Source: Gigantopelta aegis (lineage: Eukaryota > Mollusca > Gastropoda > Neomphalida > Peltospiridae). From it: a DNA stretch of 64,000 nucleotides. Below the pieces are notes generated by a model. It ran no database searches, was not told the DNA's origin, and saw nothing but the letters and a program-made list of their open reading frames with translations. The stretch is from NCBI RefSeq assembly GCF_016097555.1, contig NC_054708.1:3669750-3733749 (forward strand). Reading direction: 5' to 3'. The position numbers were made by a program, and so were the translations under genes. Each line of letters opens with the position of its first letter. Within the stretch, counting starts at the first letter, position 1. Below are positions 1,766 through 58,654 of this stretch, piece by piece.

Positions 1766-1877
1766 CTACAAGCTATTTATTTCTGAGCCCATTATTTTCT
1801 AAATTGCACACAAAAATAGTATTATTTTTGTTATTTCTAAAACACTTTTACTTTTCTTTTTACGTCGAACTAAACTG
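1766..1877 (+). repeat. Dispersed repeat arm, AAAACACTT family
   Basis: This stretch (ACTACAAGCTATTTATTTCTG, then TTATTTCTAAAACACTT) recurs in diverged form near 30745-30830 and 33255-33420, and inverted near 34150-34240. It is therefore a dispersed repeat, here abutting the minisatellite that starts at 1878. Confidence 0.55.
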
Positions 1878-8200: not shown

Positions 8201-11200
8201 CCAATCACTAATCACGTTATCCATGTAACACCAATCACTAATCACGTTATCCATGTAACACCAATCACTAATCACATTATCCATGTACACCAATCACTAA
8301 TCACGTTATCCATGTAACACCAATCACGTTATCCATGTACACCAATCACTAATCACGTTATCCATGTAACACCAACCACTAATCACGTTATCCATGTAAC
8401 ACCAACCACTAATCACGCTATCCATGTAACACCAATCACGTTATCCATGTACACCAATCACTAATCACATTATCCATGTAACACCAATCACTAATAACGT
8501 TATCCATGTAACACCAATCACTAATCATGTTATCCATGTACACCAATCACTAATCACGTTATCCATGTAACACCAACCACTAATCACGCTATCCATGTAA
8601 CACCAATCACGTTATCCATGTACACCAATCACTAATCACGTTATCCATGTAACACCAATCACTAATCACGTTATCCATGTAACACCAATCACTAATCACG
8701 TTATACATGTAACACCAACCACTAATCACGCTATCCATGTAACACCAACCACTAATCACATTATCCATGTAACACCAACCACTAATCACGCTATCCATGT
8801 AACACCAATTACTAATCACGTTATCCATGTAACACCAATCACTAATCACGTTATACATGTAACACCAATCCATGCGCATGCTCGGCTACAGGAGGCCGTG
8901 ATTCAATGGTGTCTGATCAAATTTAGATTTCTGTAAGTTTCTTTTTTGGACTATTGCTTTTGAGATATGATTTTATGTGATAATGACAGCTGTAGTTACC
9001 AATGAATACTTGTGCTAAACCACCAAAAAAGAAGAAAAGGGCGAGATCTAATAAAGGAGGTCAAGCGGACATCACGGATTCCACGGCTTCTAATATGGCG
9101 GACTTACCCGTATCGAGCACGCCGTCTACATGTACAAGTTTCGTCCCGATGTCTCAGCCTTCATCACAGCAAAACCTACCTTTTTTTAATGCAAATTCTC
9201 AGCAGTATTCATCACAGATTGTTCAACATGGGTTTTCACCTCCGGTTAGTGCATTTATTTGCTCAACCAGTATCATACGTAAACCCGCCGCCCTGGGTAA
9301 GTAACTTGCTGGTCAAAATAGAAGATATTTCGAAACGTTTAGCGAAACTGGATATTATTGAAAACGCTATCAGTGCTGTTAAAAATGAGGTCAGGGATTT
9401 GGGTGCTAGGGTGGCTGAAGTAGAGAAAAGTCAGCAGTTTCTTAATTCGTTGTAGGAGGAAAGCTGTACAGCGCACGAAAAGCATATTCAGGCAATTGAC
9501 ACCGAACTGGCCCGGTTTCAGAAAACACTGGATGGAGTGATGAAAGACAAAGACAGCTTAACAGAGGAAATTGTCGATTTGCAAAGCCGCTCAATGCGTG
9601 ACAATCTACTTTTTTTCAACATTAAAGAGGGTGAAAATGAAAACTGTTATGAACTGATCGAGAAATTTTGTGCAGACAAGTTGGAAATATCAGACACGTT
9701 ACTGATAGACAGAGCGCATAGGATTGGTAAAATAAGCCCTGGTAGGGATCGACCAATTGTGGTGAAATTTAGCAGTTTTCGACAGAGGGAGCAAGTAAGG
9801 AAAAGTGGCTTCAAGCTGAAGAACACAAACTTTGGTATTGGTGAACAATTCCCTAAAGCAGTTCAAGAAAAGAGAAAGTTGCTGATGTCTGCGTTCAAGA
9901 AAGTGAGAGAAGAAAATAGGAGGACCGCACTTGTGAGAGACAAACTGTACATTGATGGGAAACTACACTTGTGAGAGACAAACTGTACATTGATGGGAAA
10001 CTCTACACTTGTGAGAGACAAACTGTACATTGATGGGAAACTCTACACTTGTGAGAGACAAACTGTACATTGATGGGAAACTCTACACTGGTATGTTGCC
10101 GACAAAATAGAATTTATAGGAAAATGCTGTTCGTGACAGTTTAACATTTATTTCCTGGAATATTAATGGTGGGTTTGACAGTAAATGGAATGACACTTCT
10201 TTTCGGAACTTTATTTTTACTTATGATATTATTTTCTTGTGTGAGTGTTGGATTGAAAATGATTATGTTTTAGAAACCGATGGTTTTCAATCATATGTGT
10301 GTACCCAAGGTTTAATTCAAAACAAGGAGGAGGATCAGTCATTTTAATTAGAGATACATTTACAAAAGTAATTACGGTAAGTGAAATATCATACGATACC
10401 ATTGTGTGGTTAAAAATAGATAAACATGTTACTGTTGATAACGAATATTTAGTTTGTGCTCTTGTATACTTACCGCCATCTAATTCTTCTTTTTACAGAC
10501 ATTATGATGGTGATATCTTTTACGAATTAGAAAATCAAATTGTAAAATATTCAGCTAAAGGAAATGTGTTTATTTTGGGTGATTTAAATAGTCGCACTCA
10601 AACTAAAAATGATTTTATTGAAAATGATAATTTGCATAAATCTGTTTGTGACAAATTTGGTAGATTATTTTCTTATATTAACGACACCAAGTTACCACCA
10701 CGTGTTAATCCAGATAAAGGGTGTAATGAATATGGAACCAGGCTATTAGATCTTTGTAAAACAACTGGTTTGCTTATTGTAAACGGCCGAGACTTACAGT
10801 GGAAGTCGTGGTCTATCTGTTATTGACTATTTACTTTGTTTTCCAAAAATGTTTGATAACTTTTCAAAACTGATTGTCTGTAATTTTGATCAGTTTTCGG
10901 ATCATGCACCATTGCATGTTGTGTTGATTATTAGACAACTGAGCATGACTCAACGTGTTAGTAGTGAAATTGACATGAACAAAGGTCAAGTCTGTGCAGT
11001 TTGACGGTGGAAATCAGAGTATTTGCATGAATGCAGGGAAGCTATTAGAGTTAATCTTGACAAATTAAGTAAATCTTTTATTGCAAATAATATCACTTCA
11101 CAAACAGATATGGATCATAGTGTTGAAGGATTTACGCAAACATTAAATGATTTTGTTTCTCCTTTGTTCAAGGTACCTGTCAAGTCAAAATCATGTGCTA

Positions 11201-14200
11201 GTGAAGGACGCCCTTCAAATAGTAAATATTGCAACATTCCTCGCCCCCCTCCACGAAGTGATGACAAGCTATGGTTTGATGATAAATTAAAGGAGCACTA
11301 TTTGGATTATTTAAATGCTTTAAAAAAGTTTAATATTAACAAATCATTGGAAAATCACCAGCTTATTAATAATAAAAAAAAGATTTATAAAAGTTTACAA
11401 AAAAAAAGAAAAAGAAATTATTTACGTACAGAAGGTGATATGCTTGACATTTTAAGAAGAACTAATCCGAAACAATTTTATGCTAAATTTTCAAAATGCA
11501 AAAAAAAAATGGAAGGTGTAGATTTACAAACTTTTTTTGAAAATTTTAAGAGTTTGTCATTAGATGTTGATGAATGTTATGATGATATTTATAGTTTTGA
11601 AGGAAATATAATGTTTGATGAGCTTGAAACAACTATTACTGCAGAAGAAGTAGAAACGGCAATACACAGCCTGAAAAGAAATAAAGCCCATGGTAGTGAT
11701 GGTATTATTAATGAATACTTTATTGAATTTAGAGAGTTTTTGATACCACTATTGCTCAATATATTTAACTGCGTGCTTTCGACAGGTTATTTCCCAAGGA
11801 GTTGGTCTACAGCTGTAATTGTACCAATTTTTAAAAAAGGTGACACAATGGACCCAAATAATTATCGTGGAATTAGTTTAATTAGTTGTCTTGGTAAATT
11901 GTTTACATCAGTTATTAATCAGCGTCTTCTGTCATGGTCGAAAAAAAAATATATTATTACTGATGCTCAGTTTGGTTTCCAACCCAACTTTGGTACTGTT
12001 GATGCTATTTTTGCACTGCATTCAATTATTAGTAAGTCTTTGTCATCTAAAAAGCGTCTTTATTGTGCATTTATAGATTTTAAAAAGGCTTTTGATACAA
12101 TTAATCGGTCTAAGTTATGGTTTAAACTACATAAGATTGGTATACAGGGAAAAGTGTTATCTGTTATTTATTCTATGTATCAGAACGTTAAATCTTGTGT
12201 TACTATTAACGGCTTTCAGTCAGATTACTTTTGTAATGGGTTAGGTTTGATGCAAGGTGAAGTTTTGTCACCGATTTTGTTTTCTTTATATATCAATGAT
12301 TTTGAAGTAAGTTTTATCCAAGGGAACTGTATACCATATGAGTGTCAGTCACTTAGTTTATATTTATTAATGTATGCAGATGATCTTGTAATTTTTTCAG
12401 AATCAACTGATGATTTGCAGTTACAATTAGACACTTTGCTAGATTATTCTAGAAAATGGGATCTACATGTAAATAATGCAAAGACAAAAATTGTTGTTTT
12501 TAGAAATGCAGGTAAACTTAGAGAGAATGAAAAATGGTTCTACGATGATAACTGTATTGAAATTGTGAATAACTTTACATACCTGGGTATTGTATTAAAC
12601 TATAATAACAAATTTAATATTGCTGAAAAAATATTGTCTGAGCAAGGTAGAAAAGCTATTTTGCATTGAACCGAAATGTTAAAGCTCTGTATCTCAATCC
12701 AGCAACTATGCTATCATTGTTTGATTGTTATATTGGTAGTATTTTGTATTATGCATCTGAAGTATGGGGTTCACATAAGGGAGCTAATATTGAGCGTATT
12801 CATATGGAATTTTTTTTTAAACTGTTGGGTGTTAAAAAATCTACATGTAATGTAATGATTTATGTGGAACTTGGTCGTTATCCATTAAGATACCAGCGGA
12901 TATATAATATGATTAAATACTGGTGTAAGCTGTTAGTGACATCTAATTGTATATTGAAGAATTGTTATGAATTTCTGTATGACAGAGTAAAAAATTATAA
13001 AGAACAAAACTGGGTATACCACATTAAAAAGGAATTGATTAATTTGGGTTTGGGGGATATATGGTTTAATCAAGTATTATATCCTGGATGTTTATCTGTA
13101 ATCAAACAAAGAATTCTAGACCAAGCTATGCAATATATCAGGAGTGAAATTGATATTTTGCCAAAATGTATTATGTACAAATATTTTACAGATACATTCA
13201 ATCTGCAATTTTATTTAGGGAAACCACTTCCAGTACTTTATAGAAAATATGTGTCAAAATTTAAAATGTCATCTCATATGTTAGCAATTGAAACTCGCAG
13301 ATATAGTCATACACAGCGACATGATAGATTATGTTTTCATTGTTTAAATGTTATGGAAGATGAGTTTCATTTTATCTTAAAATGCCCCTTATATACGGAT
13401 TTGAGAAAAAAAATACATAAAACCTTATTACTGGAAAAAGCCATAATTTTTTAAGCTACTGCAATTATATAATGTACAACATTCTAAAACGTTATGTAAT
13501 TTTTGAAAATATTTATATAAAGCAGTTAAATTAAGAAAAGAAGTTTTTTAAGGCATTTTCCGTATGTGTATAGTTTATTTGTTTCATGTGACATGTATGT
13601 TTTCTTGTTTATCCATGTAACACCAATCACTAATCACGTTATCCATGTAACACCAATCACTAATCACGTTATCCATGTAACACCAATCACTAATCACATT
13701 ATCCATGTAACACCAGTCACTAATCACATTTCATAAGATTAGAGCATGGAAACAGACACTCACCTGTTCACTTTTCTGAATATTGTATCGACACCAACTG
13801 GCAAAATGTTCACAGTTACTGAACATAATATTATATCCAATCTCGCCAGTCTTTGACAGTGCCCTTGCTACAATTTCATCACCCGAAAGAGCTCTACCAA
13901 AAAACAAAACAATAAAGATTTATGTTTAATAAAAATGTGTTTGTACATAACTCTTATTGGTAAATAACATTTAAATGAATTGCAGTAAACATACAGCAGG
14001 GCTCGAAACTCACCAAAACATATGGTGCCCAAAAAATAATAATTGATGTTTGCAAATTATGGTAAGAGAACCACGAGCAAGATTTTAATGTGGAATACAA
14101 ATATTAATAGTGGCTCATATGTTATAGCTCTAAAGAAGATCGCCCACATAACATTATTTGGGTGACTAATTCCATTATTTTTTTAATATTTAAGTCGTCC

Positions 14201-14812: not shown

Positions 14813-17800
14813 AAGAGAGAGAGCGAGTCCATGATACACAATGCCAGATTTCTATCACTTTTTTTTAAAATGGAGGCATGAGTGGGGTGGGGGGCAGGAG
14901 ACATTTATTTTATTTTTTATTTTCAAGACATTGGATGTAGGCCTACCACACAATGAGCACCAAATGATTAAAGGACAAAATATTTGGTGGCGGGGGGAGG
15001 GTAATAAAAATTAAAAGAGAAATCTTGTGCTGTACGAAGAACGTTCAGCACATGATTTCTCTTTTAATTTTTTGAGACGAACCCTACAATTTGAAATCGG
15101 CAAACGCACGTGTTAACTGAAACTGACTGTTAAGTGTTAGTCTCAACTAACAAGACGACGAGATTATCATGAGCACGTTATCAAGATCGCCATCTTTAAT
15201 ACAACAAAAACCTCTGACGTCACAGTCCTGACGTAAAACACTAAAGGTTCAGATGATACAAAAACAACACATAACATCTTCCCCCTTTTGGAATAAAGAA
15301 TAATTATACTAATCACTTTAAATTCTGTAAAATAATAAACCTAAACTTTTGTTAATGTAATACTTGAGTGTGATAATAAAAAAAAATTAAGTTAAAATTA
15401 ATTTGTTCTCTTCTCTTTCCCTTTACAGTGAAAAGTTTTCAACACTTACAAACAAAACTGAAGTTTTTAACACTTAAAGAAAATTAATGCAACCGTTTCC
15501 AGAAATTTAAACACATTATAGGTCCAATATGTCTCTTGGCTTGATCACTCGGCCAGATCTTGTTGTGTATGGTTCTAGGACCACCTCTTGTTTTTCAGTC
15601 ACAGTTGATTCGTCCATCACTTTGGGGTTTGGGTCTGGTGTTACATGTGGATCCTGTATCCTGGTGTTACAGTCATCTGGTTGGCAAGAGGAAAATGAAT
15701 CACTGACGGGTTGGTTGAGATTCGCTCCCATACTAGATCGACGTAAGTGAGTTGGAGCATGTGGCATTGATCGCAGGAATACCCGGTTCCGTCGGTATGT
15801 TCTGCCTTTACTGGTTTTCACCTCATAAGTTCTACTTTTCAGTCTCTGTGTTACTGTTGCCTCTCTCCATTCATGGTTGTTGTTATCAGTGGGCTGCATT
15901 CGTACGACATCCCCGACATGAAGAGGTTTTAAGTCTCTTTTGTTCATTAGGCTTTCTGCTATTTTGGATCGTTTGTTATCCATTTTTAGTTTTTCACCTT
16001 CAATTTGTTCATGTGCCAATGGTTTCAGGAGATCGAATGTCGTTGGGATGATAGTTTTTGTTCTTCTGCCCATCAGGCGTTGAGCAGGGCTTGTTGTCAT
16101 GCCTTCTTGTGTAGTGTTTCTGAGATTCAGAAGACCCAGATAGTGGTCTTCACCAGCATCGTGGCACTTTAACATCATCTGTTTTGCTATTTTGACAGCA
16201 GCTTCTGCAGCCCCATTTGCTTGGCTGTGTCCAGGACTGCTCGGTTCATGTGAAAACCCCCATTTCTTTGCAAACAATTTGAAATGTTCCAATGAATATT
16301 GGGGTCCGTTGTCGCTCACAACTATGTCTGGAATTCCATGTCGAGCAAAGTGGTGTTTTAGCTTATGAACCACCGTTTCTGATGTGGTGTCTGAGAGGTA
16401 GTCAACTTCGAAGAATTGACTGAAATAGTGAAAATGTCAGTTCCTACTTTTTCCCATGGTCGATTTGGCACTTCATGCATATGTAAGGGTTCAGTGGACT
16501 GTTTTCTGCTGTGAGAAGCACAGATGTCACAAGATTCGATATAATGTCTTATCTCTGAAGACATTCTTGGCCAGAAAATGAGTTCTCTGGCTCTGCGAAG
16601 ACAGGAGTTGATGCCAAAATATCCTGCATAAACTTTGTCTTTCAAGTCTTTCCGCATGGAAACGGGTATTATTACTCGTTCTCCTCTTAGAACTATATCA
16701 TCTTGCACTGTAAGCTCATCTCGGTAGTCAAAATAGGGAGTGATACTGGGGGAAACGCCACTTCTTTTATCTGGCCATCCTTTCACTATGGTATCCATGA
16801 GTTCAGTTAGTGAGTTGTCTGAAGCAGTTGCTTGCTTGATCTCTGCTAGTCGTTGATGGTTGAAAGGTGAGAAAGTGAGAGAATTTACATTCTCAAATTC
16901 CGAGTCTGGTGGTTTTTGTATTGGTGCGCGAGATAGAGCATCAGCTACTGGCTTGTACTGTAGAGTATAGATGTACGTCTGTGCCCTAAGAAGCATCGAT
17001 TGGAGGCGTTTTGGGGCCTTTGACAGGGGTTTCACAATAATGGAAACCAGAGGTTTATGGTCTGTAATCACATGGACCTGACATCCGAATGTGTAATGGT
17101 GGAACTTTTCCAAACCATACACAATAGCCAACATCTCTTTTTCGATTTGGGCATAGTTTTTCTCTGTGTTGGATAGTGTACAACTTGCAAAGGCCACTGG
17201 TCTGCCTTCCTGTGTTAACACACAGCCCAGTCCATAGTCGCTGGCATCATTAACTAGGATCAGCTCTTTGTTTGGATCATAGAATGCCAGGACAGGACTT
17301 TCAATTATCTTCTTTTTCACTTCTAAGAATGCTTGTTCTTGAGAGTTTGACCAAATCCAGGGAACACCCTTCTTCAACAAGTTATGCAATGGATGAATAA
17401 CTTGTGTGATGTGTGATAGAAATCGTGACAAGTAGTTAACCATACCAAGAAAACGCCGCAGTTCTTCAAGATTCTTGGGCGACGGATAGTCTTTAATGGC
17501 TTCTATCTTTTGTGGATCTGTTCTTAGTCCTTGTTTCGTGATTTGGTGTCCCATGAATATTATGTTGTCAGATCTTAGAACCAGTTTTTCTTTGTTTAGT
17601 TTTAATGTTCTTCTCTAGGCATCGTCTCAGAAACGAGTCACAGTGTTTGTTATGATCTTCCAGTGTCTTTCCATGTATTATCACATCATCAGCAACACAC
17701 ACTACTCCTTTAAGACCATCAAACGCTTCGAGCAGTTTCTTCTGAAAGATCTCTGATGAGACTGAAACGCCAAATGGAAGTCGTAGCCATTTGTAACGAC

Positions 17801-35587: not shown

Positions 35588-36820
35588 ATGTCTAGTCGCT
35601 ACTACCTGAGAAACAAACCTAATCCCAAGAAGGATGATTTGGGAGATAGCCGTCACCAAACAGGTAACATTTCAGGAAAAATGCCAAACAGAAGAAATGA
35701 TTCCACCACAGATTCGGACAGTGACTATTCACCAGAACGCAGGTCAGCGTCCCCAGAGTTCCGTATGGAATGCAGTGTTTCAGACCATGACTCGCTGGAT
35801 TCTGTCCCAACTGACACCATCCACAGTAGTCCTTCTTCTACAACCGGGTCACCTTCAGCACTGACCCCTTCTCCGCGACTCGCTCGTCGAGTTCAACATG
35901 AAAGATTGAGTAGTCCCGAGAGTGGACACGGTCAGTCGTTTCAGTCCAGTCCCAAAATGAGGAGAACCCAAGCAGAAGTATCATCATTTGAAAGTTCACA
36001 CAAAAGAAGAGTACCTGCAGCTGGTAAAGGAAGCAAACATGTGACAGATTGGTACAAATTCCTACAGACACCCATCGTTATTCGTATCTTTTGTATCCTG
36101 GTAGTAGTCGCAGTCGCACTTGCCCTTGCTCTAAAACTGGTATCCATATATGCAGGCTATTCTGATGATGACAAAGCTATGCATGCAACAAAGCCAACCG
36201 AGTTCCAAGAGTTTATAAAGAGAGTCAATGAACTAAGAGATGTTTTCCCTTCCCAGGATGAGCGGACTTGGAAAACACTGAAGTCCTCAGTGAAGCATGT
36301 GCTGGATGGAAAGGACCCACACTACCCTGCTGTGATTTTGTTTGCAGTTCCTAAGAGTGCATCAAAGCTTGGCACGTGCTTTGCTCAGCAGGTAGCACAG
36401 AAGTTTAAGAACTCTACCCGACTCAACAAATACATCGACTGTCGACACAGCAGCCATCTTGATCCTGCCGACGCGAAACTTGATCTTGACGAGAAAATCC
36501 ATGCACATTTCCAGACCGGGAAGGCTGTTGTGATCGATCATCTGGAGATGTTGTCTCCCAAGTCTGTCCTCCTACTTCACGGCACCTGCGACAACGACAA
36601 CGCACCCTTCAAGGATGTTCTCATTTCACTGGTTTTTCACCTGGATATTCCAAGAGACATCGATCACAAGCGCGTGGAGGATAAGGTGGAAGAATATTTA
36701 ATGAGTGGCCTGGATGTCGACAAAGTCGGTGCAATGCTCAGCCGCATTGCAAACAACATCGTTGTGATCCGACATGAACAGTCAGGACTGATGGGTAAAG
36801 TTTGTCCTCAATTAAAGTAA
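35588..36820 (+). CDS. TOR1AIP1: LAP1/LULL1-like torsin-activating membrane protein
   Basis: 410 residues. Residues 1-150 are Ser/Arg/Pro-rich and probably nucleoplasmic. One transmembrane helix spans about 162-187. The remainder is the lumenal AAA+-like domain of torsin-interacting proteins: YPAVILFAVPKSASKLGTC, TGKAVVIDHLEML, CDNDNAPFKDVLISLVFHL, RVEDKVEEYL and MLSRIANNIVVI match vertebrate LAP1/LULL1. Arg386 in LSRI aligns with the arginine finger that activates torsin ATPase, and Cys264 and Cys406 match the conserved lumenal cysteine pair. Family role: activates torsins in the perinuclear space and ER. The Met lies seven bases after a strong splice acceptor (pyrimidine tract, then TTGTCAG at 35574-35580), so a 5' untranslated exon is likely upstream. 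The whole protein is in one exon, followed by an A-rich stretch at 36908-36947, so a retrocopy cannot be excluded. Confidence 0.9.
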   Translation: MSSRYYLRNKPNPKKDDLGDSRHQTGNISGKMPNRRNDSTTDSDSDYSPERRSASPEFRMECSVSDHDSLDSVPTDTIHSSPSSTTGSPSALTPSPRLARRVQHERLSSPESGHGQSFQSSPKMRRTQAEVSSFESSHKRRVPAAGKGSKHVTDWYKFLQTPIVIRIFCILVVVAVALALALKLVSIYAGYSDDDKAMHATKPTEFQEFIKRVNELRDVFPSQDERTWKTLKSSVKHVLDGKDPHYPAVILFAVPKSASKLGTCFAQQVAQKFKNSTRLNKYIDCRHSSHLDPADAKLDLDEKIHAHFQTGKAVVIDHLEMLSPKSVLLLHGTCDNDNAPFKDVLISLVFHLDIPRDIDHKRVEDKVEEYLMSGLDVDKVGAMLSRIANNIVVIRHEQSGLMGKVCPQLK

Positions 36821-42501: not shown

Positions 42502-44875
42502 TGCCTGTGTGAGATTCACACCAAGAACAAAGAACTTTGGCCCTTTTCCACATATGGTCATGTCACATGACCACGAAAGCTGTCCCCTCTGGCACCAGCC
42601 TTCCAAACATAATAATGTAAGCCCTTAGAGAGTGGTTGGTTGTGTTCTTTTTATAGAAAGGGAGGAAATATACCTGCAGTAAATAAAACAATCATAGTGC
42701 ATTTCCACCACCATATGAAGCAGGCAAATCCTGACCTTCAAGATATAAGAAATAATACACTAGATATATATTTCACTATCCTACACACTTCCCAACTTAA
42801 AATGTTGCCATCCTCGGCAACACACAAAAACATATAATAATGGTATGCACAAAAACATATCACAATGGTAATTGTAACATCGGTCTTCCCACACACATGT
42901 CAACCTAAAATGTTGCCGTCCTGGGCAACTCAAAGCATCAGTCACTGCGGCCCCTGCAACAGTAACTGTGCCAAGAGCACCTGAGTCTGAGCCAAATCTC
43001 TTATGGCTTGAGCATGTGGCGAGCTGGCTGATGTAGATACTGCTACTCTCTCCTGTACAACTGTAGAGACTGGTAGACGATTAGGGTTACTATGTTGACC
43101 AGCACCCGACTTTGTAGAATGTCTCTGTTGTGGCTGGGGCTGACCCAGTGTAGTCACCAAGAATGGAGATGTTTCCTCTCTTCTGTCGACTGATGATTGG
43201 ACTACGGTAACTACATCCTCCTCAACCTCATTGTCCGTACCGGAACTAAATGAGACAGGAGCTGAGATCATGTCAAAAACCTCATCAAATAGAAGTGGTG
43301 AAAACAGATTCTCATCATTGGCATTCTCAATTTCCAATTCGTGCATTCTGTTTGGATCTGGAGAATTCAGTGCCTGAGCTACTGCATTCAGAATAGGAAT
43401 GTCCATATCCTGTGGGTGGTCATCACACTGGATATCAGAAGATACTTCAACAGGTATGACCGTTGGCACTGTCTCAGTAACCACAATGTCTTTGGAATCT
43501 AAAATCTCTGATTGGTGGAAATTTTTCTGAAAACCATCCCCGTCCATGAGCTCCAGAGTATAGACATGGCCATCAGAATTGGGTTTGGCAACCACTCTGT
43601 ATGGTTTTGGATTCCAAACATCCTGCATTTTGTGTCTACCCTGGTGGTGATACACACGGCCACCAAGTGGAATGTCACAAGTTGTTGACTTGGCATTCCG
43701 GCCTTTCTGTCTTTGTAATGCCTCATGTTCCAGCCTCACCCCTGCCTTCTCGAATGACTCCCGCATCCTCTGATAGTGGAGTGCTATCCTCTCATCAACA
43801 TCTGGTGTGCCTTCTTCTGCCTCATCAAGATCATCGAAAAGTTGATCAAAAAGTAGTTTTGGCTCTCGACCGAAGAAGAGGAAGTATGGTGAATAACCAG
43901 TTGAAGAATGTCGAGTGGCATTATAGGCATAGATCAACCCAGGAAGATATTGTGGCTAGTGTTTCTTCTGAGAAGGATTTAATGTACGAAGCAAGTCGTG
44001 CATCGTACGGTTAAATCTCTCTGCCTGAGCATTGCCCTGTGGGTGGTATGGTGTGGTCCGGCTTTTCTTAATACCATACATAGTGCAGAGCTCTTTGATT
44101 AGGTCGGACTCAAAGTTTCGGCCTTGATCACTATGAATTCGTCGCGGAATCCCATAACGCACAAACCATTCTTTGACCAGAACTTCTGCAACTGTCCTGG
44201 CTTTCTGGTCTCTTGTTGGGACAGCTTGAGTGAACTTAGTGAACACATCTGTCATCACCAAGACATTTTCTCGCCCATCAGTTGCAGGTTCCAGGAACGT
44301 GAAGTCAATAGCCAAGACTTCTAAAGGTTTCTTGGCTAGGAAACGTCCCATTGTTGGTCTAATCTGGGGTCTAGACTTTGCAAGCAAACATCTGTTGCAA
44401 TTGTGACAATATTTCTCAATGTCCACAGTCATTCCTGGCCAGAAACATCTTTTCTGTATCAGTGAAAGGGTTCGTTCATAACCTTGATGGCCAACTTCAT
44501 CATGAAGTGCCTGCATGATTTTCTCTCGCAACACTTGAGGTAAAACAAGCTGGTGCTGAGTATTGATTCCATCTTGTATAATCTTGGATGCCTGTGTGAG
44601 ATTCACACCAAGAACAAAGAACTTTGGCCCTTTTCCACATAATATGGTCATCTCACATGACCACGAAAGCTGTCCCCTCTGGCACCAGCCTTCCAAATAT
44701 AATAATGTAAGCCCTTAGAGAGTGGTTGGTTGTGTTCTTTTTATAGAAAGGGAGGAAATATACCTGCAGTAAATAAAACAATCATAGTGCATTTCCACCA
44801 CCATATGAAGCAGGCAAATCCTGACCTTCAAGATATAAGAAATAATACACTAGATATATATTTCACTATCCTACA
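42502..44875 (-). mobile_element. Gypsy-type LTR element fossil, internally reduced
   Basis: Near-identical direct repeats of 284 bp (42502-42785) and 287 bp (44589-44875) read TG...CA on the minus strand and serve as LTRs. A purine tract (AAGTTGGGAAG) precedes the 3' copy. The interior holds only the 3' part of pol: an integrase with an H2C2 zinc region, catalytic core ([36 protein letters not shown]) and a C-terminal region. The gag, protease and reverse transcriptase parts are absent. The LTRs are about 98-99% alike, so the insertion is young. I see no matching target duplication. Not functional. Confidence 0.8.
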
Positions 44876-46276: not shown

Positions 46277-49200
46277 TTGTATGATGACTAGCATAAATAG
46301 CGCGGCGGGATACAGCTGTCAGTCTAGTGCTCGCCCGAGGTGTCTGCGTCGTAGGGTCATCTCAATGGACCCATTCTCTGGGGGGTTTTCCATGACCAGC
46401 ATAAATAGCGCGGCGGGATACAGCTGTCAGTCTAGTGCTCGCCCGAGGTGTCTGCGTCGTAGGGTCATCTCAATGGACCCATTCTCTGGGGGGTTTTCCA
46501 TGACCAGCATAAATAGCGCGGCGGGATACAGCTGTCAGTCTAGTGCTCGCCCGAGGTGTCTGCGTCGTAGGGTCATCTCAATGGACCCATTCTCTGGGGG
46601 GTTTTCCATGACCAGCATAAATAGCGCGGCGGGATACAGCTGTCAGTCTAGTGCTCGCCCGAGGTGTCTGCGTCGTAGGGTCATCTCAATGGACCCATTC
46701 TCTGGGGGGTTTTCCATGACTAGCATAAATAGCGCGGCGGGATACAGCTGTCAGTCTAGTGCTCGCCCGAGGTGTCTGCGTCGTAGGGTCATCTCAATGG
46801 ACCCATTCTCTGGGGGGTTTTCCATGACTAGCATAAATAGCGCGGCGGGATACAGCTGTCAGTCTAGTGCTCGCCCGAGGTGTCTGCGTCGTAGGGTCAT
46901 CTCAATGGACCCATTCTCTGGGGGGTTTTCCATGACTAGCATAAATAGCGCGGCGGGATACAGCTGTCAGTCTAGTGCTCGCCCGAGGTGTCTGCGTCGT
47001 AGGGTCATCTCAATGGACCCATTCTCTGGGGGGTTTTCCATGACTAGCATAAATAGCGCGGCGGGATACAGCTGTCAGTCTAGTGCTCGCCCGAGGTGTC
47101 TGCGTCGTAGAGTCATCTCAATGGACCCATTCTCTGGGGGGGTTTTCCATGACTAGCATAAATAGCGCGGCGGGATACAGCTGTCAGTCTAGTGCTCGCC
47201 CGAGGTGTCTGCGTCGTAGGGTCATCTCAATGGACCCATTCTCTGGGGGGTTTTCCATGACTAGCATAAATAGCGCGGCGGGATACAGCTGTCAGTCTAG
47301 TGCTCGCCCGAGGTGTCTGCGTCGTAGGGTCATCTCAATGGACCCATTCTCTGGGGGTTTTTCCATGACTAGCATAAATAGCGCGGCGGGATACAGCTGT
47401 CAGTCTAGTGCTCGCCCGAGGTGTCTGCGTCGTAGGGTCATCTCAATGGACCCATTCTCTGGGGGGTTTTCCATGACTAGCATAAATAGCGCGGCGGGAT
47501 ACAGCTGTCAGTCTAGTGCTCGCCCGAGGTGTCTGCGTCGTAGGGTCATCTCAATGGACCCATTCTCTGGGGGGTTTTCCATGACTAGCATAAATAGCGC
47601 GGCGGGATACAGCTGTCAGTCTAGTGCTCGCCCGAGGTGTCTGCGTCGTAGGGTCATCTCAATGGACCCATTCTCTGGGGTTTTTTCCATGACTAGCATA
47701 AATAGCGCGGCGGGATACAGCTGTCAGTCTAGTGCTCGCCCGAGGTGTCTGCGTCGTAGGGTCATCTCAATGGACCCATTCTCTGGGGGGTTTTCCATGA
47801 CTAGCATAAATAGCGCGGCGGGATACAGCTGTCAGTCTAGTGCTCGCCCGAGGTGTCTGCGTCGTAGAGTCATCTCAATGGACCCATTCTCTGGGGGGTT
47901 TTCCATGACTAGCATAAATAGCGCGGCGGGATACAGCTGTCAGTCTAGTGCTCGCCCGAGGTGCCTGCGTCGTAGAGTCATCTCAATGGACCCATTCTCT
48001 GGGGGGTTTTCCATGACTAGCATAAATAGCGCGGCGGGATACAGCTGTCAGTCTAGTGCTCGCCCGAGGTGTCTGCGTCGTAGGGTCATCTCAATGGACC
48101 CATTCTCTGGGGGGTTTTCCATGACTAGCATAAATAGCGCGGCGGGATACAGCTGTCAGTCTAGTGCTCGCCCGAGGTGTCTGCGTCGTAGGGTCATCTC
48201 AATGGACCCATTCTCTGGGGGGTTTTCCATGACTAGCATAAATAGCGCGGCGGGATACAGCTGTCAGTCTAGTGCTCGCCCGAGGTGTCTGCGTCGTAGG
48301 GTCATCTCAATGGACCCATTCTCTGGGGGGGGGTTTCCATGACTAGCATAAATAGCGCGGCGGGATACAGCTGTCAGTCTAGTGCTCGCCCGAGGTGTCT
48401 GCGTCGTAGAGTCATCTCAATGGACCCATTCTCTGGGGGGTTTTCCATGACTAGCATAAATAGCGCGGCGGGATACAGCTGTCAGTCTAGTGCTCGCCCG
48501 AGGTGTCTGCGTCGTAGGGTCATCTCAATGGACCCATTCTCTGGGGGGTTTTCCATGACTAGCATAAATAGCGCGGCGGGATACAGCTGTCAGTCTAGTG
48601 CTCGCCCGAGGTGTCTGCGTCGTAGAGTCATCTCAATGGACCCATTCTCTGGGGGGTTTTCCATGACTAGCATAAATAGCGCGGCGGGATACAGCTGTCA
48701 GTCTAGTGCTCGCCCGAGGTGCCTGCGTCGTAGAGTCATCTCAATGGACCCATTCTCTGGGGGGTTTTCCATGACTAGCATAAATAGCGCGGCGGGATAC
48801 AGCTGTCAGTCTAGTGCTCGCCCGAGGTGTCTGCGTCGTAGGGTCATCTCAATGGACCCATTCTCTGGGGGGTTTTCCATGACTAGCATAAATAGCGCGG
48901 CGGGATACAGCTGTCAGTCTAGTGCTCGCCCGAGGTGTCTGCGTCGTAGGGTCATCTCAATGGACCCATTCTCTGGGGGGTTTTCCATGACTAGCATAAA
49001 TAGCGCGGCGGGATACAGCTGTCAGTCTAGTGCTCGCCCGAGGTGTCTGCGTCGTAGGGTCATCTCAATGGACCCATTCTCTGGGGGGTTTCCATGACTA
49101 GCATAAATAGCGCGGCGGGATACAGCTGTCAGTCTAGTGCTCGCCCGAGGTGTCTGCGTCGTAGGGTCATCTCAATGGACCCATTCTCTGGGGGGTTTTC

Positions 49201-50186
49201 CATGACTAGCATAAATAGCGCGGCGGGATACAGCTGTCAGTCTAGTGCTCGCCCGAGGTGTCTGCGTCGTAGGGTCATCTCAATGGACCCATTCTCTGGG
49301 GGGTTTTCCATGACTAGCATAAATAGCGCGGCGGGATACAGCTGTCAGTCTAGTGCTCGCCCGAGGTGTCTGCGTCGTAGGGTCATCTCAATGGACCCAT
49401 TCTCTGGGGGGTTTTCCATGACTAGCATAAATAGCGCGGCGGGATACAGCTGTCAGTCTAGTGCTCGCCCGAGGTGTCTGCGTCGTAGGGTCATCTCAAT
49501 GGACCCATTCTCTGGGGGGTTTTCCATGACTAGCATAAATAGCGCGGCGGGATACAGCTGTCAGTCTAGTGCTCGCCCGAGGTGTCTGCGTCGTAGGGTC
49601 ATCTCAATGGACCCATTCTCTGGGGGTTTTTCCATGACTAGCATAAATAGCGCGGCGGGATACAGCTGTCAGTCTAGTGCTCGCCCGAGGTGTCTGCGTC
49701 GTAGGGTCATCTCAATGGACCCATTCTCTGGGGGGGTTTCCATGACTAGCATAAATAGCGCGGCGGGATACAGCTGTCAGTCTAGTGCTCGCCCGAGGTG
49801 TCTGCGTCGTAGGGTCATCTCAATGGACCCATTCTCTGGGGGATTTTCCAGTCCCAACCAGTGCACCAAGACCGTGGTATGTGCTGTTCTGTTTGTGGGG
49901 AAGGGCATATAAAACTGGCGGATCTAAGAGGGGAGCCCACCCCCTAAGCTTTTACTTTGGAGAATCTCTTCGGGAACGTCTGTGGCCTTTGGCCACATAT
50001 CCATGCCCCCCCCCCCCCCCCCCCAAAAAAAAAAAAAAATTAAAAAAAAAAATTGATTGTCTGGATCCTCGACTGTTTAAAAGATTCCTTACTGCTAAGG
50101 TTTCGTCTACGAGTAACAAGTGACCATATTTGACATCCAGTACTGAATAGCCGATAATATAATTAATAAATCAATGTGCAGGCCCG
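46277..50186 (+). mobile_element. SINE with massively amplified head
   Basis: The last 108-bp satellite unit (ending near 49849) runs without a break into SINE body sequence (CCAACCAGTGCACCAAGACCG, GTGGTATGTGCTGTTCTGTT, GGGCATATAAAA). After a 155-bp insertion (about 49915-50070, with poly-C and poly-A) come the remaining body and tail (GATTCCTTACTGCTAA, TTTGACATCCAGTA, AATCAATGTGC). The satellite unit itself aligns to a SINE head. The whole block therefore reads as one SINE whose 5' part was copied about 33 times. Confidence 0.75.
46284..49849 (+). repeat. 108-bp satellite, about 33 copies, SINE-head derived
   Basis: The unit is about 108 bp: ATGACTAGCATAAATAGCGC, GGCGGGATACAGCTGTCAGT, CTAGTGCTCGCCCGAGGTGT, CTGCGTCGTAGGGTCATCTC, AATGGACCCATTCTCTGGGG and a GGTTTTCC end. 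The part from GGCGGGATACAGC onward parallels SINE heads in the window (GGGATGTAGCCC, GCTCGCTTGATGTGCGGTCG, GGGATCGATCCC, GGGCCCATTGGGCTATTTCT). Copies are almost identical; differences are GACC/GACT, GTAGG/GTAGA, TGTCTG/TGCCTG and the length of the G run. Long frames of a 36-residue repeat (MTSINSAAGYSCQSS...) are a by-product of the unit length being divisible by three. Confidence 0.93.
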
Positions 50187-53388: not shown

Positions 53389-54022
53389 ATTAAGAGTAGT
53401 AGGGGGGCCTGCCGGGCGTCATGACCTACTTTCCGTGACCTCGTCCTACTGCCCCTGACCTACTTAGACCGGCCCATGACCTACTTAGACCGGCCCCTGA
53501 CCTACTTAGTCTAGTCCTGACCTATTTAGCCCGGCCCCGATCCGTCGTATTTAGCAACGCCCGTGCTATCCTGTCTGTGGGAAGTGTAGGATCCCTTGCT
53601 ACTAATGGGAAACTGTAGCGGGTTTCCTCTCTAAAACTGTCCAAAAGTATGTTTCACATCCAATAGTCAATGATTCATAAATCGAGGTGCTCTAGTGGTG
53701 TCGTTAACCTACCACTTCTAAGGACTCGGCCCGACGCGAGGTAGTGTGTTTAATTTTAGCGCACTGAATGATGAATGGTTATCACTGTTTACATCCGGGA
53801 AGCGGTGGTATCCTACTTTATTGTTGGTGGCAATACTGAACTAGAAGTTACATTCTTAAAGACGTGAAATAAGAAATGATTTAAATGGTGTAAAATAGAA
53901 TTCTCGTTCTACGCTATCTGATAGCGCATTCACAAGATTATTATGAACTGACCTATTTCGTCACTTCATTCCGCGATTCGCCGCTCGCACATATAATGGT
54001 TTAAATGACATATTTTGTTGAT

Positions 54023-54094
54023 GTCTCGGTAGCTCAGTCGTTAGCGTAGTCGACTTTACCGTGAAAGGTACGTCGTTCGTATCTCATGTGGGGA
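54023..54094 (+). other. tRNA-like segment in the left arm
   Basis: GTCTCGGTAGCTCAGTCGTT (A-box-like) and CGTTCGTATCTC (B-box-like), overall about tRNA length and starting TCTCGGTAGCTC as many tRNAs do. The acceptor stem does not pair well, so a decayed tRNA or SINE head is more likely than a working gene. Mirrored at 57446-57517 and, in weaker form, at about 57914-57990. Confidence 0.45.
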
Positions 54095-54233
54095 AATTAT
54101 ATTTTTCTATTATTTTTAAAACAAAATAATAATTTATAGTTTGTTTTTATTTTACTTATTTACTTACTTATTTATTTGTTTATTTATTTATTATGTTACG
54201 TTTTTTTTTCAAGCATCCTCTAATAACCCTGTG

Positions 54234-54496
54234 GGGACGGGACGTAGCTTAGTGTTCCCTTGATGTGGGTCGGTCTGGTATATATCCAGCCAATGCTCCA
54301 CAACTGGACAACGGTATGTACTATCCTGTCTGTGGGATGGTGTAGGATCCCTTGCTGCTAATCGGAAGAGTAGCCCATGCAGTGGCGACAGCGGGTTTTC
54401 TCAATCAATATCTGTGTGGTCCTTAACCATATGTCCGTATAACCGTAAATACAATGTGTTGAGTGCGTCGTTAAATAAAACATTTCTTTCTTTCTT
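54234..54496 (+). mobile_element. SINE inside the left arm
   Basis: GGGACGTAGCTTAG head remnant and full body (GTAGGATCCCTTGCTGCTAA, CTTAACCATATGTCCG, AATAAAACATTTC). The same copy is present inverted at the matching place in the right arm (57036-57299). Confidence 0.88.
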
Positions 54497-54879
54497 GTAT
54501 AACCATAAATAAAATATGTTGAGTAAATAAAACATTTCCTTCCTCGTAAAATAAAGATTAATTGAACACAAATATTTTATTTTGTTTTAGCCATAGAAAA
54601 AGAAAGACACATTTGTCTCGAAGAAAGGAATGTTTGTCTCGAAGAAAGGCATATGTATTAAGGAGAAGAAAGGAATAATTGTTAAAGAGAAGAAAGGGAT
54701 GTGTGTGTGTGTGTGTGTGTGTGTGAGAAAGATCCCCAGCCCATTGCTTTGAAGAAAGAACGCGTGACTGCAACTGAACGCTCCGACCTAAACTATGATC
54801 TTTTAGCTGCATTTTAAGCACAAGTATTTCCCTAGAGTACAAGCCTTTTTACAGGGCTTTTTAATTACCAAATGGGTAA

Positions 54880-55030
54880 ATACAGTGGTCGATCTAGGAT
54901 TGATCCCCGTCGGTGGCCCATTAAGCTATAGCCAACTAGTGTATTATGTCTGGTATATCAAAGATCGTGGTATGTTCTGTCTTGTACACACAGCTCTTGC
55001 TACTATAAAGTAGCGGTAGTAATATCCAAT
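54880..55030 (+). mobile_element. SINE fragment beyond the ATPase gene
   Basis: GGATTGATCCCCGTCGGTGG, GGCCCATTAAGCTATAG and TGGTATATCAAAGATCGTGG match the SINE middle part. It lies between the left arm and the ATPase gene. Confidence 0.65.
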
Positions 55031-55188
55031 CACAAATCTAGTCATAGAGTAAAAAACACAAAAAACAAACGCAATGTTTTGGTTTTTCATTTATTTCTAA
55101 ATTACAAATCACTGACACATATATAAAATGGACACACACTGGGTTACATCGAGAGGCCTTAAGGGCGACATGTGAATAATATGAGTGT

Positions 55189-56682
55189 TCATTTCTCTTC
55201 ATCATCGTCGTCCTCCTCATCGTCGGTATCGTCGTCGTCTTGTTCATCCAAATATTCGCCGATCCATGAACGATACTGATTTAATTTAGAACGAATCTGT
55301 GGTCTCACATCTTTGTCTGGATTGACAAACTGTAAAAAATTTCTGGTGTTGGGACCTTTGTCAAAGTAATGCATATAGGTCAGAAAGCGAGAGTACGTGT
55401 CTTTAAATAACTTCCATTGCAATGTCTTCATGTTTCTTTCAATGGCATCTTGGGACATGTTTTTTTCTTCGTAGCGTTTCCTCTTTCTTTCGATATAGTC
55501 ATGATTGATGTCGAATTCACGTTCCACCATGAGACGAATGCCTTCGTTTTCCAGGTCGGGCGACGGCTCTTCTTCTTTTTCATTTCCCTTTTCGCACGTT
55601 TTCACGTGTCGCTGCAAGTCGCTTCCGTCTTTAAAGACCAGACCACACGTATCGCAAGACTGCATCCTCTTGACTTTTTTCAGATAGGGTTCTACCTCAT
55701 CATCTTCTTCGTCGTCACTTTCGTAAGCGGGTATGCCTGGTAGTTTTCTCTTGAATGCGTTTCTTTGCATGATTTGCATGTAGAGCTCTTTCTTCGTCGG
55801 TGGCTGCAACTCTTCTGAGACATTCGCCGTTACGTTCGTGCTTTTATACCATTCGGACGGCCCCGTCTCTAAACCATTAGGCTGAAGACGCCAATGTTCG
55901 GGCGTGGTCGGTTTCAAGTCCACCAAGAGATATCCGTAGGGCCTATGGGTAGCTTCCTCAAACCGCTGCATGAAATGACGAGTATTTCCAGGATACATCT
56001 GCTGTGCCAAGGTTAGGACTTGCTGCTTGTCGATGGGGTTGTTAAACAGTGCCAGGTAATGACAGTTTCTTCTCTGTGTCGGGTCCTTGCTGTGATACAA
56101 GTTCTGGTTGATGGCAATCACAGAGAGGTTTCTGTGGTGACTTCCTTCCGTGAACAGGTCGGTGATGCGAGGGTCTTTTCCAGCTGTAGACATCAAGTCG
56201 TCCAACACGATGAGATTTCTGACTCTGGGATCCAAATAACGATCCTTTTCCAAATTATCGGGTATGCCTTGAACAAATTTCACTCGAGCAACCATTTTGA
56301 TCGTATCATAGAGGGGTTGCCATCGTTTGTAGAGCCAGATGATGCGCTGGGGAGGCGGGTGGATTTTACCATCCCTTAGCAGTTTGTACAACAAAACTGT
56401 CTTTCCACACGACGTGGGTCCCGACACGATCATGGTGAACGGATGTAACAATCTTAGGCGCTGCTGCTGCTGCTGCTGCTGTGGTGGTGGTGGCTGCTGC
56501 TGCTGCTGCTGTGGTGGTGGTGGTGGCTGCTGCTGCTGCTGCTGTGGTGGTGGTGGTGGTGGCTGCTGCTGTGGTGGTGGTGGTGGTGGTGGTAGACCTT
56601 TAACATGTTTTTGTTGAAAATGTCTTAACATGGCGTCTCTCCTCGAGAATGTGAAACCACATTCTGAACATGTGCTCTGCAT
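55189..56682 (-). CDS. Zinc-finger / packaging-ATPase fusion protein
   Basis: 497 residues in one uninterrupted frame. Residues 5-26 form a C2H2 finger (CSECGFTF...H...H). Residues 31-74 alternate Pro and Gln blocks. A P-loop ATPase follows: Walker A GPTSCGKT (88-95), Walker B LIVLDDLM (157-164), then TEGSHHRN, VIAINQNLY and a PYGYLLVDLKP strand. This order matches the A32/FtsK-like DNA-packaging ATPase of Polintons and related viruses. A second finger, CDTCGLVF...HVKTC, lies at 343-363 in C2HC form. The C-terminal 130 residues are helical and end in an acidic DDDDTDDEE tail. The flanking fingers are unusual for the family. It is the only gene in its element. A poly-A signal (AATAAA on the minus strand) lies about 100 bp past the stop. 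Confidence 0.85.
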   Translation of the reverse strand: MQSTCSECGFTFSRRDAMLRHFQQKHVKGLPPPPPPPQQQPPPPPPQQQQQQPPPPPQQQQQQPPPPQQQQQQQRLRLLHPFTMIVSGPTSCGKTVLLYKLLRDGKIHPPPQRIIWLYKRWQPLYDTIKMVARVKFVQGIPDNLEKDRYLDPRVRNLIVLDDLMSTAGKDPRITDLFTEGSHHRNLSVIAINQNLYHSKDPTQRRNCHYLALFNNPIDKQQVLTLAQQMYPGNTRHFMQRFEEATHRPYGYLLVDLKPTTPEHWRLQPNGLETGPSEWYKSTNVTANVSEELQPPTKKELYMQIMQRNAFKRKLPGIPAYESDDEEDDEVEPYLKKVKRMQSCDTCGLVFKDGSDLQRHVKTCEKGNEKEEEPSPDLENEGIRLMVEREFDINHDYIERKRKRYEEKNMSQDAIERNMKTLQWKLFKDTYSRFLTYMHYFDKGPNTRNFLQFVNPDKDVRPQIRSKLNQYRSWIGEYLDEQDDDDTDDEEDDDDEEK

Positions 56683-56708
56683 GACGACTCTAAATGAAAT
56701 GACGATAT

Positions 56709-56769
56709 GAGCGTTCAGTTGCAGTCACGCGTTCTTTCTTCAAAGCAATGGGCTGGGGATGTTTCACTC

Positions 56770-56831
<62 letters not shown>

Positions 56832-58623
56832 CCCTTTCTTCTCCTTAACAATTATTCCTTTCTTCTCCTTAATACATATGCCTTTCTTCTTAACAAACAT
56901 TCCTTTCTTCGAGACAAATATGTCTTTCTTTTCCTATGGCTAAAACAAAATAAAATATTTGTGTTCAATTAATCTTTATTTTACTAGGAAGGAAATGTTT
57001 TATTTACTCAACATATTTTATTTATGGTTATACAAGAAAGAAAGAAATGTTTTATTTAACGACGCACTCAACACATTGTATTTACGGTTATACGGACATA
57101 TGGTTAAGGACCACACAGATATTGATTGAGAAAACCCGCTGTCGCCACACCATGGGCTACTCTTCCGATTAGCAGCAAGGGATCCTACACCATCCCACAG
57201 ACAGGATAGTACATACCGTTGTCCAGTTGTGGAGCATTGGCTGGATATATACCAGACCGACCCACATCAAGGGAACACTGAGCTACGTCCCGTCCCCACA
57301 GGGTTATTAGAGGATGCTTGAAAAAAAATCGTAATATAATAAATAAATAAATAAATAAACAAATAAATAAGTAAGTAAATAAGTAAAATAAAAACAAACT
57401 ATAAATTATTATTTTGTTTTAAAAATAATAGAAAAATATAATTTCCCCACATGAGATACGAACGACGTACCTTTCACACTAAAGTCGACTACGCTAACGA
57501 CTGAGCTACCGAGACATCAACAAAATATGTCATTTAAACCATTATATGTGCGAGCGGCGAATCGCGGAATGAAGTGACGAAATAGGTCAGTTCATAATAA
57601 TCTTGTGAATGCGCTATCAGATAGCGTAGAACGAGAATTCTATTTTACACCATTTAAATCATTTCTTATTTCACGTCTTTAAGAATGTAACTTCTAGTTC
57701 AGTATTGCCACCAACAATAAAGTAGGATACCACCGCTTCCCGGATGTAAACAGTGATAACCATTCATCATTCAGTGCGCTAAAATTAAACACACTACCTC
57801 GCGTCGGGCCGAGTCCTTAGAAGTGGTAGGTTAACGACACCACTAGAGCACCTCGATTTATGAATCATTGACTATTGGATGTGAAACATACTTTTGGACA
57901 GTTTTAGAATTTCCCCACATTAGATACGAACGACGTACCCTCAGCGCTGGACGCGAAGTCGTTCGCACTTGACTACTAAACGCATGTTAACAAAACCTGT
58001 CATTTAAACCGTTATATGTGTGAGCGGCGAAGCGCGGAATAAAGTGACGAAATAGGTTAGTTAATAATAATCTTGTGAATGCGCTATCAGATAGCGTAGA
58101 ACGACAATTCTATTTTACACCTATTTAAATCATTTCTTATTTCACGTCTTTAAGAATGTAACTTCTAGTTCCGAAGAGTATTTTATTTAGAGACTGCCAA
58201 CACAAGATACCACCGCTTCCCGGATGTAAACAGTGATAACCATTCATCATTCAGTGCGCTAAAATTAAACACACTACCTCGCGTCGGGCTGAGTCCTTAG
58301 AAGTGGTAGGTTAACGACACCACTAGAGCACCTCGATTTATGAATCATTGACTATTGGATGTGAAACATACTTTTGGACAGTTTTAGAGAGGAAACCCGC
58401 TACAGTTTCCCATTAGTAGCAAGGGATCCTACACTTCCCACAGACAGGATAGCACGGGCGTTGCTAAATACGACGGATCGGGGCCGGGCTAAATAGGTCA
58501 GGACTAGACTAAGTAGGTCAGGGGCCGGTCTAAGTAGGTCATGGGCCGGTCTAAGTAGGTCAGGGGCAGTAGGACGAGGTCACGGAAAGTAGGTCATGAT
58601 GCCCGGCAGGCCCCCCTACTACT
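56709..58623 (-). repeat. Right inverted arm of the Polinton-like element
   Basis: 1915 bp. Longer than the left arm mainly because a module of about 470 bp occurs twice (57441-57908 and 57909-58388). The inner copy is closest to the left arm; the outer is more diverged. The arm ends 27 bp upstream of the ATPase start codon, so the arm likely supplies its promoter. Confidence 0.88.
57036..57299 (-). mobile_element. SINE inside the right arm
   Basis: Inverted counterpart of the SINE at 54234-54496, with the same internal deletions. It was therefore copied with the arm and not inserted independently. Confidence 0.88.
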
Positions 58624-58654
58624 ATTAAGGAACAACCATGAAGACACAAAGATC

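Follow-up and report, generated by a model that had tools for sequence, protein, structure and literature searches.

A probable palindrome-forming derivative of a Polinton satellite family in the gastropod Gigantopelta aegis

The window analysed here is a 64,000-nucleotide stretch of the Gigantopelta aegis genome (NCBI RefSeq assembly GCF_016097555.1, contig NC_054708.1, positions 3,669,750 to 3,733,749 of the forward strand), and window coordinates are counted from its first letter. It contains a 5,229-bp element with long inverted arms and one gene, which encodes an ATPase of apparent packaging type. We found that the same genome holds a family of ~6-kb units with these ends and four genes, and we consider it probable that the window element is a non-autonomous, palindrome-forming derivative of this Polinton satellite family. 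The four-gene parent family is the new element of this account; it was not visible to an earlier note made from the letters of the window.

The window element and its single gene

The element and its parts are as follows.

53395..58623: whole element, 5,229 bp, between two ATTAAG copies
53389..53394: left target-site duplication ATTAAG, exact
58624..58629: right target-site duplication ATTAAG, exact
53395..53417, plus strand: left terminal 23-mer AGTAGTAGGGGGGCCTGCCGGGC (genome pattern search)
58601..58623, minus strand: right terminal 23-mer, identical to the left (genome pattern search)
53395..54783, plus strand: left inverted arm, 1,389 bp (arm alignment)
56709..58623, minus strand: right inverted arm, 1,915 bp, apparently an inverted copy of the ATPase-side end (arm alignment)
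57908..58387: extra ~480-bp block of the right arm, absent from the left arm (limits from alignment)
55189..56682, minus strand: ATPase open reading frame (ORF), 497 aa, the sole long ORF
56398..56421, minus strand: GPTSCGKT, residues 88–95, which we take to be Walker A; identical in 33/33 copies
56191..56214, minus strand: LIVLDDLM, residues 157–164, which we take to be Walker B; identical in 32/33 copies
56605..56673, minus strand: N-terminal C2H2 finger, residues 4–26 (Pfam)
55597..55659, minus strand: second C2H2 finger, residues 342–362 (Pfam)
56460..56592, minus strand: 33-bp repeat encoding a P/Q tract whose length differs between copies (copy comparison)
56708..56709: rearrangement junction, ATPase leader to inverted arm; relatives continue here into a TATA box

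The element starts with AGTAGTAGGGGGG and finishes with CCCCCCTACTACT, and the (AGT)2//(ACT)2 motif is present at both ends. Aligned with each other, the arms have 1,379 matching positions and 22 differences, the right arm being longer by ~480 bp. The extra block is a diverged tandem repeat of the adjoining arm segment, and in a sister copy at C1:7706653, described below, both arms match across it. The first ~306 bp of the left arm have at least 67 matches in the genome. Between the arms lie the ATPase gene and its 3′ flank. The earlier note had reported the ATTAAG duplications, the ends, arms of 1.4 and 1.9 kb and a single open gene, all of which the coordinates and the alignment confirm; its limits, 53389..58629, mark the right locus with the duplications counted in. 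No tRNA gene was found in the window element or in the family unit L066, and Rfam gave no match in the window. Parts of the arms may resemble mollusc short interspersed elements.

Apart from the ATPase frame, the element contains no ORF of 120 aa or more and no pPolB ORF. The ATPase matches Pox_A32 exactly at the Pfam cut-off (22.8 bits, E 7e-5) and is 39% identical over 199 aa to a 288-aa ATPase that adjoins pPolB at another locus of this genome; judged from sequence alone, it would be of the packaging type. A search of IMG/VR with this protein gave no match, PHROGs gave two weak matches only, and a PDB sequence search returned zinc fingers and weak matches. The predicted structures were too poor for a fold search (pLDDT 44 for the ATPase domain and 63 for GPX, a small family protein introduced below). 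Open frames at ATPase places span 424–732 aa, a variation that apparently resides mostly in the P/Q tract, and two ATPase variants (L038 and L003, 1781–2395) have A/P repeats (APLAPIAP) in place of that tract.

A family of four-gene units

The genome lists used in this work hold the best-scored places only. Allowing up to 3 mismatches, the terminal 23-mer occurs at 121 places in the 1.15-Gb genome and its reversed control at 0, so it is not a chance sequence; a variant end pattern gave 88 places and its controls 0. One hundred of the 121 places were usable, and 165 distinct listed end places entered the pairing, which yielded 41 convergent pairs. Nearly all are small: 39/41 measure 0.56–7.5 kb, 25/41 fall between 4.9 and 6.5 kb, and two are of ~13 kb. 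Target duplications were tested in 31 of the 41 pairs, the window element included, and are exact over 6 bp in 25, agree at 5/6 bases in 4 and are lacking in 2. Among the first 11 elements 10 are exact and one (L067) agrees at 5/6 bases, L068 being counted as exact after its left end was shifted 3 bases inward, to the site given by the end-pattern searches; the further 20 pairs comprise 15 exact, 3 with 5/6 and 2 with 2/6 bases. The search for more copies with the same ends, which the earlier note had proposed, thus bears out its picture of a non-autonomous element with Polinton-type ends, 6-bp duplications and many copies. The two ends of a copy evolve in concert, which is what copying of one from the other would produce: identical 23-mers stand at both ends in 34/41 pairs (mean 3.6, maximum 11 in 10,000 reshufflings), a figure that is also raised by common descent within subfamilies. 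At least one listed family gene lies in 28/41 pairs, and none of the 41 contains a listed pPolB or a listed ATPase of the Polinton type (clade A). One of the two largest pairs, of 13.15 kb at C10:58337810, was considered as a full Polinton and rejected, as the piece L070 reads arm, ATPase, GPX, arm in the first ~5.8 kb; it very likely spans more than one element.

The parent form of the family is a ~6-kb unit with four genes rather than a 15–20-kb Polinton. Its order is end, PC4, BIR (IAP-like), a 111-aa protein (GPX), ATPase and a non-coding end of ~1.8 kb, with ends AGTAGT...ACTACT. At 29 other ATPase loci the match to the window ends at or before 56708 on the 5′ side of the ATPase; DNA of the left arm, on the other side of the gene, is common to many of these loci, with little of it in L026 and L034–L037. 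Three genes lie upstream of the ATPase. One encodes a PC4 protein with two domains (E 6.5e-20), another a protein with a BIR domain (E 4e-22), and the third GPX, which belongs to no Pfam family (best match E 0.07). Listed PC4, BIR and GPX genes stand upstream in this order at 10 of the 99 listed ATPases, and 8 of these 10 are free of stops in all four genes. Two such units were read. L066 (C9:57040136; 4,981 bp; duplication CCTGCG) has the four genes in order, with an internally deleted ATPase and no further ORF of 80 aa or more outside the four genes and the arm repeats. The unit at C8:66208165-66214449 (read as L059 and L013; 6,285 bp; duplication GCCTAT) has all four genes, with a BIR frame that stops early. 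The family units that we read contain no polymerase and no integrase- or capsid-like gene, no integrase or capsid model having been run on the genome.

The family genes are under purifying selection. Over the ATPase core of 33 copies, mostly picked by protein score, which lowers dN, the median pairwise ratio of nonsynonymous to synonymous divergence (dN/dS) is 0.22, falling from 0.32 at low dS to 0.18 at high dS. The window copy and three copies fetched by their ends give 0.13–0.33 in six pairs. GPX has a median of 0.19 (32 copies) and BIR of 0.34 (25 copies); PC4 copies were too few for an estimate. (In alignment A2, L024 was excluded for a stop and L020 was used.) Among the best-scored listed places, stop-free frames number 86/99 for the ATPase, 136/150 for GPX, 130/150 for BIR and 125/150 for PC4. 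Such low ratios imply that the family genes served a purpose while the family spread. We make no claim of selection for the window copy itself, because it differs too little from four of its closest copies (dN 0.005–0.009, dS 0.012–0.020).

Origin of the symmetric form

The PC4-side end (L059) matches the window arms over only ~140 bp, so that end is not the source of the 1.9-kb right arm. The arm reads instead as the ATPase-side end copied a second time in inverted orientation, and the window element as a derivative in which this copy has apparently replaced the rest of the unit. Read towards the ATPase, the window junction joins GAACGCTC to ATATCGTC; in the 19 relatives compared, ATATCGTC or a one-base variant of it is preceded by TATAAAAGGAACT(A/G)TGTGGGTCA. 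Among 36 loci scanned, a TATA box stands at −50 in all 24 with the usual ATPase start. GPX has one at −61 in 30/32 copies, while one of the other two has boxes at −47 and −39 and the last has none; PC4 has a TATA box within 150 bases in 3/3. The window ATPase has no TATA box within 150 bases upstream, because the junction removed it. The box is likely the promoter of the ATPase gene, and the ATPase of the window copy is probably a passenger that may be silent.

The 31 bases across the junction recur exactly at a single further place, C1:7706653, which answers the earlier note's check for a second copy. This sister (C1:7704782-7710442) has an AGTAGT end on one side; on the other, its right arm lacks 26 bp and is fused to a repeat similar to the A/P tract seen in other members. 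The surrounding DNA is unlike that of the window element, and an exact junction at a second locus with unrelated flanks means that the one-gene form multiplied after it arose. The 99 best full-length places of window-type ATPases do not include that of the sister, which hints that the gene there is not intact.

Symmetric forms with long arms recur in the family (L063, L064, L065, L069 and L070), with inner limits that differ when counted in bases of the arm: 1,389 in the window element, ~1,245 in L070, ~1,429 in L064, 1,840 in L065, and ~1,303–1,333 in L063 and L069, where the limit is imprecise as it falls inside a TG tract. Three of them (L063, L064 and L065; 3.2–4.3 kb, exact duplications) are largely two inverted ATPase-side ends. 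The ten elements fetched by their ends came from the shorter of the pairs known at that stage, a choice that favours derivatives, and their gene content varies. None of the four family genes was found in L060, L061, L063, L064 or L065; L062 has PC4 in two frames and BIR; L066 is the unit described above, with all four genes and an internally deleted ATPase; in L067 BIR and GPX are accompanied by an ATPase that has one stop; L068 has BIR, GPX and a truncated ATPase; and L069 has GPX and ATPase.

These features suggest a sequence of events that draws on the anatomy of the elements together with knowledge of Polintons and adenoviruses. A protein-primed polymerase, an integrase and a capsid would be supplied by Polintons in this genome whose outermost ~50 bp are the same. 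The satellite DNA would be copied from its ends and might be packaged with its own ATPase assisting; its integration would produce the 6-bp duplication. On this anatomy, both replication and packaging could plausibly take place in trans. At some point replication of the ATPase-side end would have switched strands and copied that end again in inverted orientation (snap-back), leaving an element with two ATPase-side ends from which PC4, BIR, GPX and the TATA box of the ATPase were lost. The one-gene form would then have moved at least once.

Relation to Polintons and significance

The proposed helpers were traced through their polymerase and ATPase. The PF03175 profile gave 124 matches, hand-merged into 85 pPolB places; the Polinton (clade-A) ATPases are the best 39 matches, and 18 lower-scoring fragment places, also hand-merged, were counted apart. 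A pPolB lies within 10 kb of 28/39 best clade-A ATPases, of 5/18 further fragments, and of 12 among 60 matches at 31–44% identity in which other clades and the window type are mixed. For the best 99 window-type ATPases the corresponding count is 0 listed pPolB within 10 kb, with one within 20 kb that lies outside the pair of ends of that element; none in a first list of 86 lies within 20 kb of a listed pPolB. Peptidase_C5 (adenain-type protease) has 11 listed places, one of them within 20 kb of pPolB and none as close as that to any of the 86 ATPases in the first list. At the same time, the two groups have similar ends. The pPolB piece L071 has 51 terminal bases in common with the window element at 92%, and the same kind of end is found in three other pPolB pieces (C3:2571833, L040 and L049), a positive answer to the earlier note's check for pPolB-bearing relatives with this terminal sequence. 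The C3 piece runs from a family-type end (2571833) to pPolB (2576427) 4.6 kb on, then to the 288-aa ATPase compared above and a 104-aa basic protein. PC4 occurs on both sides as well: 19/150 of its places are no more than 16 kb away from a listed pPolB or clade-A ATPase, at 74–98% identity, and 27/150 stand directly upstream of a window-type ATPase. Satellites and pPolB Polintons thus have similar ends and the PC4 gene in common and differ in the remaining sequence that we examined. The pPolB genes are themselves diverse, with at least three clades coexisting (L039–L058); two are ~52% identical and the third has no BLASTP match to either at E 1e-5.

Several observations weigh against a separate satellite family with helpers, or against the route proposed for the window element. 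Listed pPolB genes are found within 20 kb of 3/150 GPX places and of 3/150 BIR places, and clade-A ATPases within 20 kb of 2/150 of each; these may be neighbours or nested insertions. At C13:20086218-20096701 an end, BIR, GPX and pPolB stand in a row on one strand over ~10 kb, with pPolB only 3–4 kb from GPX and BIR (C13:20.09 Mb); this may be a nested or a larger member. The 12.8-kb pair at C8:19143638-19156479 has an exact AACCTC duplication and a BIR gene with one stop near one end, and is possibly a large family member or a nested insertion. A larger element with a window-type ATPase could sit outside the best-scored genome lists. Among the units read, none has both ends and four open genes, L066 and the unit at C8:66208165 each having one broken gene. 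On the side of the helpers, the sequence read amounts to pPolB, ATPase and the 104-aa protein in pieces. As for the route, the window junction is without clear microhomology, a feature that speaks neither for nor against the snap-back step. A TATA-like box within 150 bases is present in only 11/20 BIR copies, so that not every family gene shows one, and another start site inside the arm could drive the window ATPase.

Some of these points would suit a different history, in which the four-gene units are remnants of another autonomous Polinton lineage, one that has a window-type ATPase. PC4 genes 74–98% identical in pPolB elements imply recent exchange or common descent, and large members could have escaped the best-scored lists. 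Set against this are the 0/99 ATPases within 10 kb of a listed pPolB, the mere 3/150 GPX places within 20 kb, the 25/41 pairs clustered at 4.9–6.5 kb, and the low dN/dS across copies, which needs a maintained source; we hold this history to be doubtful, with a minority chance of being right. The proposal of the earlier note, a Polinton miniature inverted-repeat transposable element (MITE) that retains its single gene as a packaging aid, seems to us improbable. The ends do fit a MITE and the coding capacity, a 497-aa ORF, does not; L060 and L061, of 1.2 and 1.7 kb, would fit better. In its favour, the ORF is open, the family ATPase is under purifying selection and the one-gene junction is present at two loci. 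Against the idea that the ATPase was kept for the benefit of the element stands the loss of the TATA box, and elements picked by their ends keep varied gene subsets (PC4 and BIR, GPX and ATPase, broken ATPases) or none. The sister's ATPase is missing from the 99 best full-length places, and the window copy has too few changes to speak for selection.

Long, near-identical inverted arms are prone to misassembly, and two copies collapsed head to head could in principle mimic the window element. The exact target duplication, the 22 differences between the arms and the recurrence of the junction elsewhere, in different surroundings, make such an artefact very improbable. To a host gene that landed between two repeats, as the single open gene might suggest, we give next to no credence: the window-type ATPase occurs as an uninterrupted ORF at no fewer than 99 dispersed places, and several of these places lie within elements bounded by ends and duplications. 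These copies refute a host gene with introns, at a single locus and without element ends. A derivative of a Polinton satellite family, formed by inverted copying of one end, remains our preferred reading of the window element.

Elsewhere in the window, positions 46284–49850 hold 33 copies of a 108-bp tandem unit that are 98% alike, with long open frames (a 36-aa repeat) and a raised G+C of 0.53–0.55. Other long tandem arrays lie at 7368–8870 (30 bp × 52) and 1874–3593 (61 bp × 29). By eye, a 410-aa ORF at 35588–36820 resembles a torsin-interacting (LAP1-like) host protein, and ORFs at 11023–13454, 15516–17554 and 42942–44696 resemble remains of retroelement reverse transcriptase and integrase.

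PMC8097293 describes the (AGT)2//(ACT)2 end motif and perfect 6-bp duplications for vertebrate Mavericks, and a length of 15–20 kb is given for Polintons in PMC4028283. The window family resembles these elements in its end motif, 6-bp duplications, inverted repeats and Polinton-type ATPase. It differs in the absence of pPolB, in size (39/41 pairs of at most 7.5 kb; the window element, at 5,229 bp, falls well short of 15–20 kb) and in having its own ATPase paralogue, 39% identical to the one adjoining pPolB. Polintons without MCP genes exist, nine of them also without protease and ATPase, according to PMC4028283. There the ATPase accompanies the capsid genes, whereas here the ATPase is kept and the polymerase is absent.

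Symmetric defective adenovirus genomes carry an inverted duplication of one end. The window element is similar in that one parental end is apparently duplicated in inverted orientation and the interior lost; it differs in being integrated in a host genome and known from sequence alone. Incomplete adenovirus particles contain left-end DNA, as stated in a review (PMC5033970). In the window element the duplicated end would be that of the ATPase side. Phage satellites with their own packaging genes are likewise small elements that depend on a larger one. Virophages and transpovirons (PMC3671162) are also small, with some genes of their own, and the window family would be like them in depending on a larger virus-like element. 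Unlike all of these, the window family has Polinton-like ends and integration and a host genome of animal size, and its dependence on a helper is a prediction. Non-autonomous, satellite, defective-interfering, PC4-bearing or BIR-bearing Polintons do not appear as such a family in the titles and abstract openings surveyed.

A wider picture, to which we give about even credence, is that of a long-lived Polinton satellite lineage without polymerase or capsid, whose genes, kept by selection, encode a packaging ATPase of its own, a BIR protein that counters apoptosis, a DNA-binding protein of PC4 type and a small protein private to the lineage. It would trade ends and PC4 with its helpers and shed palindromic defective forms like those of adenoviruses; the window element would be one such form that spread. 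Maverick particles have not been observed so far, according to PMC8097293. If the picture is true, a Polinton satellite whose packaging ATPase is held under purifying selection would speak indirectly for packaging, and the genome of this animal would contain a testable pair of virus and satellite. The palindromic offshoots would point to a linear stage in the replication of Polinton DNA, primed from the ends as in adenoviruses.

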